Positions 9,701 through 12,557 of a DNA stretch of 64,000 nucleotides are shown one piece after another. The stretch's first letter is position 1. Each line of letters opens with the position of its first letter. Under the pieces are notes generated by a model. It saw only the letters and a program-made list of their open reading frames with translations, made no database searches and was not told where the DNA came from. This DNA comes from Oxalobacter sp. (GTDB taxonomy: Bacteria; Pseudomonadota; Gammaproteobacteria; Burkholderiales; Burkholderiaceae_D), in the NCBI GenBank assembly GCA_003605115.1, contig QZKY01000004.1, positions 62,001 to 126,000 of the forward strand. Direction: 5' to 3'. The translations under genes were made by a program, and so were the position numbers.

Positions 9701-10774
9701 TTATTCTAGTTCATCCCCGGTGTCTTTCAGGCGACGTTGTTTGACAGCTTCAGCCAACACTTCCAGCACACCGACGGAGTCTTCCCAATCAATGCACGCA
9801 TCCGTTACGGACTGTCCATACACCAACGGTTTGCCCGGAATGAGATCCTGACGGCCAGCGACGAGATTCGATTCAATCATTACGCCGATAATGCGACGAT
9901 CACCATTGGCAATTTGTTTGGCAATGTCTCCGCACACCGGGATTTGATTTTCTGCTTTTTTCGAGCTGTTGCCGTGCGAAGCATCGATCATGATGCGTGC
10001 CGCCACACCGCTGGTCGCCACTTCCCTGCACGCAGCTTCCACGCTTTCCTCGTCGAAATTCGGCGCTTTGCCGCCGCGCAAGATGATGTGACAGTCTTCG
10101 TTGCCGGAAGTACGCACAATTGCGGAGTGGCCTTCTTTGGTCACGGACAGAAAATGATGCGGTTGCGATGCCGACTTGATCGCATCAATCGCGATCTTCA
10201 CATTGCCATCGGTACCGTTCTTGAACCCTACCGGGCAAGACAAACCTGAAGCCAGTTCACGGTGTACTTGGGACTCCGTAGTACGCGCGCCGATGGCGCC
10301 CCATCCGACCAGATCAGCAATGTACTGCGGACTGATCATATCGAGATATTCCGTCGCGGCGGGTAAGCCCATTTCATTTACGCTCAGCAAAACCTGACGC
10401 GCCGTGTGCAATCCTTCATTGATCTGATAGCTATTATCCAAATGCGGATCGTTAATCAAGCCTTTCCAGCCGACGGTGGTGCGCGGTTTTTCGAAATACA
10501 CGCGCATCACTATTTCCAGTTCGTTTTTATGCCGTTCGCGTTCGTTCACCAAACGATGTGCATAGGCTATCGCTGCTTTGGTGTCATGAATTGAGCAAGG
10601 GCCAATCACAACAATCAGGCGATCATCCTGACCGTGCAATATGCGGTGCATCGCAACGCGCGCGTCGGCAACGGTTTTCGCAACCTTCGGCGAGCAAGGC
10701 AAATCGTTTATCAATTTTATAGGCGGCAGCAGCTCCTTGATTTCTCGGATCCGTAAGTCGTCTGTGCGTGGCAT
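9701..10774 (-). CDS. aroG: 3-deoxy-7-phosphoheptulonate synthase, class I
   Basis: AroG condenses phosphoenolpyruvate with erythrose 4-phosphate, the first step towards aromatic amino acids. The 357-residue enzyme is of the E. coli AroG/F/H type, with GPCSIHD near residue 61, the KNGTDG loop in the middle, and the late DASHGN motif. The start MPRTDD at 10774 is chosen because GGAG lies nine bases upstream; the open frame extends further but matches nothing. A Phe-rich leader peptide, a terminator and a promoter lie upstream at 10854-11037, so control by phenylalanine through attenuation is likely. Confidence 0.95.
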   Translation of the reverse strand: MPRTDDLRIREIKELLPPIKLINDLPCSPKVAKTVADARVAMHRILHGQDDRLIVVIGPCSIHDTKAAIAYAHRLVNERERHKNELEIVMRVYFEKPRTTVGWKGLINDPHLDNSYQINEGLHTARQVLLSVNEMGLPAATEYLDMISPQYIADLVGWGAIGARTTESQVHRELASGLSCPVGFKNGTDGNVKIAIDAIKSASQPHHFLSVTKEGHSAIVRTSGNEDCHIILRGGKAPNFDEESVEAACREVATSGVAARIMIDASHGNSSKKAENQIPVCGDIAKQIANGDRRIIGVMIESNLVAGRQDLIPGKPLVYGQSVTDACIDWEDSVGVLEVLAEAVKQRRLKDTGDELE

Positions 10775-10853: not shown

Positions 10854-10880
10854 AAAAAAACCGCCATCTCTGGCGGTTTT
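10854..10880 (-). terminator. attenuator terminator in the aroG leader
   Basis: On the minus strand the stem AAAACCGCCA/TGGCGGTTTT, with loop GAGA, is followed by a run of seven T. It lies 21 bases after the stop codon of the leader peptide and about 80 bases before the aroG start. The 5' arm ACCGCC (10877-10872) can instead pair with GGCGGT at 10931-10926 inside the leader gene, which would prevent termination. Confidence 0.85.
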
Positions 10881-10900
10881 ATCGGAATTCGGTTTGTTGC

Positions 10901-10984
10901 TCAGTCGCGTGCTTTCCGCCGATCCACCGCCTTGGGGTTGGAATAGCTAAAAAAGTAAAAAAAGAAAAAACGGAACACTTTCAT
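10901..10984 (-). CDS. Phe/Tyr-rich leader peptide of aroG
   Basis: This 27-codon frame runs from ATG 10984 to TGA 10901, with AGAGGA five bases upstream. The peptide starts MKVFRFFFFYFFSY: seven Phe and two Tyr within residues 4-14, followed by a polar tail. It sits directly between a sigma70 promoter and an intrinsic terminator ahead of aroG. The arrangement matches pheL-type transcription attenuation: a ribosome stalled on the Phe codons leaves GGCGGT (10931-10926) free to block the terminator stem, while one that reaches the stop covers it. The frame, the site and the hairpins are seen; regulation is inferred. Confidence 0.82.
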   Translation of the reverse strand: MKVFRFFFFYFFSYSNPKAVDRRKARD

Positions 10985-11008
10985 GATTTTCCTCTACGCG
11001 GGTGAGGC

Positions 11009-11037
11009 AATATAGCAGAGTTTCATTGGTGCTGCAA
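11009..11037 (-). promoter_or_regulatory. sigma70 promoter of the aroG leader
   Basis: On the minus strand TTGCAG (11037-11032) and TATATT (11014-11009) are separated by exactly 17 bases. The expected start is near 11002, about 18 bases before the leader peptide ATG. Confidence 0.75.
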
Positions 11038-11093: not shown

Positions 11094-12557
11094 TTAACCC
11101 GTGCCCCCGACAATCATATCTTCAATCCTGATCGTGGGTTGTCCTACTCCGACCGGCACACTTTGCCCTTCTTTGCCACACATGCCGACGCCAAAATCCA
11201 GCCGCATGTCATTGCCAATCATGGAAACGCGATGCAACACGTCGGGGCCATTGCCGATGAGGGTTGCTCCTTTGACAGGATAGGTCACTTTTCCGTTTTC
11301 AATCATGTAGGCTTCGCTGGCAGAAAAGACGAATTTGCCGTTCGTGATGTCCACCTGACCACCACCGAAATTCACGGCATACAAGCCGTGTTTGACGGAT
11401 TCGATGATTTCTTGCGGATCTTTGTCGCCACCACGCATGATGGTATTCGTCATGCGCGGCATGGGCAAATGCGCGAACGATTCGCGTCGTGCATTGCCTG
11501 TCACGGACATTTTCATCAAGCGGGCATTCATGATGTCCATCAAGTAGCCCTTCAAAATGCCGTCTTCAATCAAGGTCGTGCATTGCGTCGCATTCCCTTC
11601 ATCGTCCATATTCAGGGAACCGCGTCGATCTGGAATCGTGCCGTCATCAACCACCGTCACGCCCTTCGCTGCCACACGCTCGCCAATCCGTCCGGAAAAC
11701 ACACTCGATCCCTTTCTGTTGAAATCGCCTTCCAGCCCGTGTCCGATGGCTTCGTGCAGCAAAATTCCGGGCCAGCCTGGCCCGAGCACCACCGTCTTTG
11801 GACCCGCTGGCGCGGGACGCGATTCCAGATTGGTCAGTGCAGACCGAACCGCGTTTGTGGCGTAGTGTTCCAACTGTTCGTCGCTGAAATGGGCATAATC
11901 CACGCGACCACCGCCGCCGCAGGTTCCCATTTCGCGGCGGCCATGTTGTTCTGCGATCACAGTAATCGATAGGCGAACGAGCGGACGCACATCCGCTGCC
12001 ATCACGCCGTCGCCGCGCGCCACGAGCACCACGTCATACTCACCCGCCAGGCTCGCCATCACTTGCACAATGCGCGGATCTTTTCGCCGCGCCATCTGTT
12101 CAACCTTTTCCAGCAAGTTCACTTTCGCTGTGGCGTCGAGCGATGCCAGTGGATCGTGTGGATGATAAAGCGAGCGACCGCCATTTTGCTTCAACATGCC
12201 CGCCACTTTTACTTTTCCTGCGCCTTGTCGCGCAATCGTCCTGGTAGCGTGTGCCGCTTTGGAAAGCGCAGCTTCCGAAATTTCGTCGGAATAGGCAAAA
12301 GCCGTTTTATCACCGGAAATGGCGCGCACACCAACCCCTTGATCGATGGCGTAACTGCCCGTTTTTACGATGCCTTCTTCAAGACTCCAGCTTTCATTTT
12401 TCGTGTACTGGAAATACAAATCCGCATAGTCCACGCGATGCGCAAACACTTCGCTGAGCGCTTTTTGCAGTTTCGATTCGTCCAGGCCAAACGGTGTCAG
12501 CAGCGTATCTCGTGCGATTGTCAAAATTGCCGGATTGGGGATAAAGGAATGACTCAT
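11094..12557 (-). CDS. tldD: metalloprotease TldD
   Basis: TldD forms a heterodimer with TldE/PmbA and degrades unfolded peptides; some members mature microcins. The 487-residue protein carries the zinc motif HEAIGH followed by GLEGD near the middle, and the family's GGTG-type C-terminus. It lies 30 bases after parB, as the apparent last gene of the mnmG-rsmG-blc-parA-parB run. Its partner pmbA is not in this window. Confidence 0.95.
   Translation of the reverse strand: MSHSFIPNPAILTIARDTLLTPFGLDESKLQKALSEVFAHRVDYADLYFQYTKNESWSLEEGIVKTGSYAIDQGVGVRAISGDKTAFAYSDEISEAALSKAAHATRTIARQGAGKVKVAGMLKQNGGRSLYHPHDPLASLDATAKVNLLEKVEQMARRKDPRIVQVMASLAGEYDVVLVARGDGVMAADVRPLVRLSITVIAEQHGRREMGTCGGGGRVDYAHFSDEQLEHYATNAVRSALTNLESRPAPAGPKTVVLGPGWPGILLHEAIGHGLEGDFNRKGSSVFSGRIGERVAAKGVTVVDDGTIPDRRGSLNMDDEGNATQCTTLIEDGILKGYLMDIMNARLMKMSVTGNARRESFAHLPMPRMTNTIMRGGDKDPQEIIESVKHGLYAVNFGGGQVDITNGKFVFSASEAYMIENGKVTYPVKGATLIGNGPDVLHRVSMIGNDMRLDFGVGMCGKEGQSVPVGVGQPTIRIEDMIVGGTG

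Follow-up and report, generated by a model that had tools for sequence, protein, structure and literature searches.

The closest described relatives of the element reported here are the pheL-pheA leaders of E. coli and other gammaproteobacteria (Rfam RF01859, Phe_leader) and pheM-pheST, all built around a short Phe-rich leader ORF. In pheL-pheA the codons read are for Phe only, the target is biosynthetic, and an antiterminator overlaps the 5′ arm of an intrinsic terminator. In trpL-trpEDCBA three mutually exclusive helices (1:2, 2:3 and 3:4) compete, and the position of the control codons is such that a stalled ribosome frees segment 2. In the thrL (Thr/Ile), ilvGMEDA and ilvBN cases a single leader holds control codons for two or more end products of its branched pathway. 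The repression of DAHP synthase by aromatic amino acids is, in E. coli, the task of TyrR, a DNA-binding repressor acting on aroF and aroG.

We analysed a 64-kb stretch of the genome of Oxalobacter sp. (hereafter, the window), in which an earlier note had described a Phe leader peptide and a transcription attenuator in front of aroG. The features that define the trpL/pheL type are found here together: (i) a short leader ORF that can be translated and contains a run of end-product codons; (ii) an intrinsic terminator between this ORF and the structural gene; (iii) an alternative antiterminator that uses the 5′ arm of the terminator. On the other hand, the target is aroG, the first step of the shikimate pathway, and not pheA or pheST, and the control codons are for Phe and Tyr, unlike those of pheL. 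Compared with trpL-trpEDCBA, the amino acids, the target, the sequence and the lineage all differ; compared with the thrL and ilv leaders, the end products are Phe and Tyr, with Trp on occasion, and the target serves the first step, common to all of them. The task is the same as that of TyrR, but it would be performed by RNA attenuation. We consider it likely, with a probability of roughly nine in ten, that the element acts as a transcription attenuator of aroG, operated by a translating ribosome and responding to the charging of tRNA-Phe and tRNA-Tyr. The attenuator part of the earlier proposal stands, and its sensor has to be extended from Phe alone to Phe and Tyr.

The element was found in none of the RNA catalogues searched, and the open-access literature searched yielded no account of a leader or attenuator of aroG in Betaproteobacteria, though an earlier prediction may exist in older attenuation papers. 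Membership of Phe_leader was rejected, since the window leader scored 33.1 bits against a gathering threshold of 55; none of 20 related loci passed this threshold, and another site in the same genome outscored the window leader on this model (34.9 vs 33.1 bits). Among the window matches up to E = 1 there was no T-box or riboswitch family.

All the features described below lie on the minus strand of the window. The unit begins downstream of the end of tldD, which is encoded on the same strand (11094-12557), with a candidate sigma70 promoter at 11009-11037, identified by direct reading. It consists of a −35 box TTGCAG (11037-11032), a 17-nt spacer and an extended −10 element TGC-TATATT (11017-11009, with TATATT at 11014-11009), and would start transcription near 11003. 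The boxes and the spacing are as previously reported and the −10 box agrees with the consensus at five of six positions; the −35 box agrees at only three of six, and it is because of this weakness that a consensus scan did not report the promoter. In 40% of 93 related leaders a −10-like hexamer (at least 5/6) is present upstream, compared with 19% in shuffles, which lends the promoter weak support only.

The leader ORF, 27 codons long, occupies 10901-10984 (stop TGA at 10903-10901), encodes MKVFRFFFFYFFSYSNPKAVDRRKARD and is preceded by a ribosome-binding site AGAGGA at 10990-10995. Direct reading confirmed the seven Phe and two Tyr codons counted before within codons 4-14: Phe at codons 4, 6-9, 11 and 12, and Tyr at codons 10 and 14 (10943-10975). 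In all six frames of the window, this is the sole frame with at least seven Phe in 11 codons, and in a first-order Markov control such a run is expected 0.05 times per 64 kb; chance alone would not be expected to produce it. The ORF is followed by the intrinsic terminator AAAACCGCCA-GAGA-TGGCGGTTTT (10880-10857; 10854-10880 with its T run), already recognised in the earlier reading and conserved in relatives, as are F/Y-rich ORFs homologous to the leader peptide before their aroG genes.

Three RNA segments can be assigned to the leader. Segment 2, the 5′ half of the putative antiterminator, spans 10914-10931 and contains GGCGGT (10931-10926), ATCGG (10923-10919) and CGG (10918-10916); segment 3, the 3′ half, spans 10872-10892 and contains CCG (10892-10890), CCGAT (10885-10881) and ACCGCC (10877-10872). 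The last of these doubles as the 5′ arm of the terminator. The complementarity between the in-frame GGCGGT and this arm had been pointed out before, at a distance of about 18 bases from the last Phe codon; we measured 17 nt, and 11 nt from Tyr14. Segment 1, GTGTTCCGT at 10970-10978, can pair with CGGAAAGCAC at 10918-10909 in a protector helix 1:2 with a computed energy of −12.7 kcal/mol, which is an addition to the scheme proposed earlier. The 171-nt leader as a whole folds with −47.2 kcal/mol (z = −2.2), and in the full-length fold without a ribosome the simple 1:2 helix is not the sole structure. When the window RNA was folded before the 3′ arm of the terminator is made, the antiterminator reached −21.9 kcal/mol, compared with −15.0 kcal/mol for the terminator hairpin alone. 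By the same procedure, the antiterminator was the minimum free energy structure in 92 of 93 leaders.

To follow the ribosome along the leader, folding was repeated with its leading edge set at the A-site + 12 nt, a footprint value assumed from general knowledge that shifts the resulting switch point by about one codon. In the window, the full antiterminator was available up to codon 14, which is the last aromatic codon, in agreement with the claim that a ribosome stalled on Phe leaves GGCGGT free; at codons 15, 16 and 17 its energy fell to −17.9, −12.1 and −9.9, and it was zero at the end. A ribosome at the stop codon does not cover GGCGGT as had been supposed: with a standard footprint it covers about 10918-10891, and masks instead the inner arm of the antiterminator. 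Across 108 distinct leaders the last permissive codon coincided with the last aromatic codon in 61, was one or two codons later in 40 and one codon earlier in seven; in these seven, the modelled switch precedes the last aromatic codon by one codon. Moreover, 63 of the 108 leaders, and the window leader, have exactly 11 nt between the end of the last aromatic codon and GGCGG, and this spacing recurs in clades with otherwise different peptides. The control codons are thus placed so that stalling frees the antiterminator and reading on masks it, as in an attenuator, and the recurrent 11-nt spacing offers a clean comparative estimate of the leading edge of the ribosome in attenuators.

Conservation was evaluated on aroG loci taken from named genomes and from relatives of the Oxalobacter sp. 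genome. An F/Y-rich leader and a terminator were present in all but about ten of 110 aroG upstream regions, including nearly all of the Oxalobacteraceae, Burkholderia, Paraburkholderia, Caballeronia, Pandoraea and Ralstonia loci fetched, so the Phe run and hairpins, whose absence from relatives the earlier note had named as contrary evidence, are indeed there. The layout in these loci is a short F/Y-rich ORF (typical peptides are MSFARFYFYFYFSYSSPKAVEKR and MSAKFYFYFFWHLRPLADREG), followed by GGCGG and by a terminator with ACCGCC/GGCGGT. A covariance model derived solely from leader sequences, without any aroG sequence (R1), was then used in whole-genome searches. It matched 59 of 250 genomes sampled across the order, and all the fetched matches were directly before aroG. 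In the Oxalobacter sp. genome it gave one convincing match, with 106 bits; the next one (20 bits, E about 1, at a terminator) was rejected as a second leader copy. A wider model (R2), likewise free of aroG sequence, matched 62 of the 250 genomes, in 41 of the 121 genera of the order, these order-wide counts being lower bounds because the searches were strictly filtered. Among the 40 nearest genomes R2 found exactly one match in each of 25, all just upstream of aroG, located independently, and on the same strand. Outside the order, the element is also present before aroG in four genomes of the same class (L143, L144, L159 (family f63) and L160 (f68)), with leaders such as MNAARASFYFWYYFPKPLAEEGLRSP and MNMLPNRYWFYFFYVFRNHWRKG. 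A plasmid search gave no match.

The leader-less aroG loci include L036/L092, L055/L095 and L106-L110. In the Oxalobacteraceae loci L036/L092 and L055/L095, aroG closely follows tldD with neither leader nor terminator, an apparent loss of the attenuator. In a Collimonas MAG (L031) the leader RNA is largely intact, the F/Y run is out of frame and there are six T instead of seven, which perhaps reflects decay or a homopolymer assembly error.

These data bear on the simplest alternative, in which the terminator merely marks the end of the tldD unit upstream and the Phe-rich ORF is there by accident. tldD is indeed upstream on the same strand, and intergenic terminators are common. Such an arrangement, however, would not explain a Phe run beyond chance, nor why leader, antiterminator and terminator are kept together, with fixed spacing, in about 100 loci, nor why the model matches only before aroG; in addition, in L036 and L055 aroG follows tldD without any terminator. 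We regard this explanation as hardly credible, and an attenuator of aroG as the reading that these comparisons favour; its exclusive link to this gene and the codon/antiterminator spacing come, like its anatomy and its alternative pairings, from sequence and comparison.

The pairings were examined by exchanging partners among 57 non-redundant leaders in 5000 permutations, a design in which relatedness is not fully removed. For helix 1:2, the duplexes of native partners were stronger than those of swapped ones (1/5000 permutations; 18/5000 within clade), and the same was true for the variable inner part of 2:3 (0/5000; 83/5000 within clade). In A2, helix 1:2 was paired in 89.5% of cases, with a covariation of 0.284 vs 0.169 in shuffles, and slid controls paired in at most 58% of cells. 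The compensatory changes that had been suggested as a check were found for helix 1:2 in Massilia/Janthinobacterium, where ACCTGC/GCAGGT, ACCGGCC/GGCCGGT and ACCCGC/GCGGGT occur and pair 6-55 is G-C in seven leaders, U-A in seven and C-G in one. They were not found in the GGCGG/CCGCC/GGCGG core, which shows almost no variation down to the most distant leaders. Such a core leaves the central 2:3 helix without covariation, and for the core 2:3 and 3:4 helices the variable flanks were examined in its place. Burkholderia/Pandoraea alone gave no significant signal for 1:2 or inner 2:3 in the swap test, their computed 1:2 duplexes are weak, and a protector helix in Burkholderia is at most putative. 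A shared inner 2:3 helix for Burkholderia was discarded, as it showed one compensatory pair and a slid control at −2 scored equally.

The core is also informative when read as codons. Across the leaders GGCGG lies in all three reading frames; it is mostly read as Ala-Val, Ala-Asp, Ala-Glu or Ala-Ala, but as Arg-Arg in L028, L056, L097, L122 and L123, and as Gly-Gly in L019, and upstream of it conservation of the F and Y codons is at the amino-acid level. An RNA kept at GGCGG while the peptide shifts frame, with F/Y kept upstream, is as an attenuator would predict. It fits poorly with the idea that the ORF encodes a functional small hydrophobic peptide, membrane-bound or toxic, whose own expression is controlled by the hairpins. 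The FYFYF-rich peptides are hydrophobic and conserved, which favours this idea; against it, their C-termini shift frame while the RNA motif stays (L028, L056, L097, L019, L122), the leaders range from 17 to 32 codons, no protein family is matched and the place is always before aroG. A peptide function therefore seems very improbable.

As to what the attenuator senses, the stretch ahead of GGCGG contains a mean of 4.7 Phe, 2.4 Tyr and 0.3 Trp codons per leader. Near the switch Tyr ranks first among the aromatic residues, at offset 11 (49%) and offset 20 (51%), and F and Y continue to alternate in clades whose peptides differ in other respects. On account of the mean Phe and Tyr counts and of Tyr at offset 11, we read the element as a Phe-plus-Tyr sensor, within which the window leader appears tilted to Phe. 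The same attenuator could respond to Phe only, the Tyr codons being filler that keeps the peptide readable. Support for a response of this kind comes from the window leader itself, with seven Phe vs two Tyr, from Phe at offset 17 in 83% of the leaders, from the orthology of AroG with the Phe-sensitive enzyme of E. coli, and from the analogy with gammaproteobacterial pheL. The frequency of Tyr and its leading place near the switch, together with the conserved alternation, make it unlikely, though less so than the other alternatives considered here. Arrest-peptide leaders also exist, and one can imagine a TnaC-like nascent-peptide arrest in which free Phe or Tyr, rather than the lack of charged tRNA, is the signal. 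The polarity would be wrong for a biosynthetic gene, since arrest at high Phe would raise aroG, and there is no fixed arrest motif, F, Y and W being interchangeable and the flanks variable; we give little credit to this possibility and retain charged tRNA-Phe and tRNA-Tyr as the probable signals.

The regulated gene, aroG, encodes a type I DAHP synthase of 357 aa (9701-10774, with a ribosome-binding site AGGAG at 10785-10781). The protein matches NCBIfam NF006723 (592 bits, cutoff 568) and PF00793, and its best PDB match is the Phe-regulated enzyme of E. coli; on these grounds it can be taken as a true AroG orthologue, the counterpart of the Phe-sensitive E. coli enzyme. It was the only DAHP synthase of its type found in the genome (2.3 Mb, 99.9% complete). 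Within the terminator there is an ATG that shares the reading frame of aroG (10867-10774), so that ORF callers may start the gene 31 codons early (388 vs 357 aa). A TyrR-type HTH was not found in the Oxalobacter sp. genome, in a search in which E. coli was positive. The search for other aromatic leaders in this genome covered pheA and trpE. No F-rich leader was seen upstream of pheA, which lies behind serC. Just before trpE there is a Trp-rich short ORF, MSLNQKLIVVEKDGLEAWPWRRWQSWSGLNS (L148 1246-1341, G000:C10; trpE at 1414), with four Trp in eight codons, followed by a GGCAAGTTTTTT tract; the terminator scan passed none there, and the ORF is a probable trp leader.

The following mechanism can be proposed. 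RNA polymerase would start at the promoter downstream of tldD and make the leader, with a ribosome following on the 27-codon ORF. When Phe or Tyr is short, the ribosome would stall within codons 4-14, covering segment 1 and leaving everything from about 10933 on free; segment 2 (GGCGGT...CGG) could then pair with segment 3 (CCG...ACCGCC), the terminator would not form and aroG would be transcribed. When both amino acids are plentiful, the ribosome would pass codon 14 and mask segment 2, so that segment 3 would pair with the 3′ arm of the terminator and transcription would stop. If the leader is untranslated, or the ribosome is gone, helix 1:2 would be expected to block formation of the antiterminator. 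Transcription and translation of the leader, the dependence on tRNA and the size of the effect on aroG are the parts of this scheme that we infer. Judged from the comparisons, the attenuator is widespread and appears to work like the known pheL/trpL kind.

For the biology of these bacteria, the element would provide a concrete mechanism by which a large bacterial order controls the first enzyme of the shikimate pathway, and would do so in a genome where the search for a TyrR-type HTH found none. The leader model could be converted at once into an annotation family, the element being missing from Rfam, and the leader itself could serve as a ready-made sensor of aromatic amino acids for engineering aromatic production in Burkholderiales. 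The Oxalobacteraceae genomes that lack the attenuator would be useful for asking what replaces it. In a wider perspective, we are inclined to believe, with some reserve, that this is an ancient aroG attenuator reading Phe and Tyr, which would gate entry to the shikimate pathway as a whole in much of what used to be classed as Betaproteobacteria, as well as in a few other gammaproteobacterial lineages, and would fill, at the RNA level, the role played in E. coli by TyrR.
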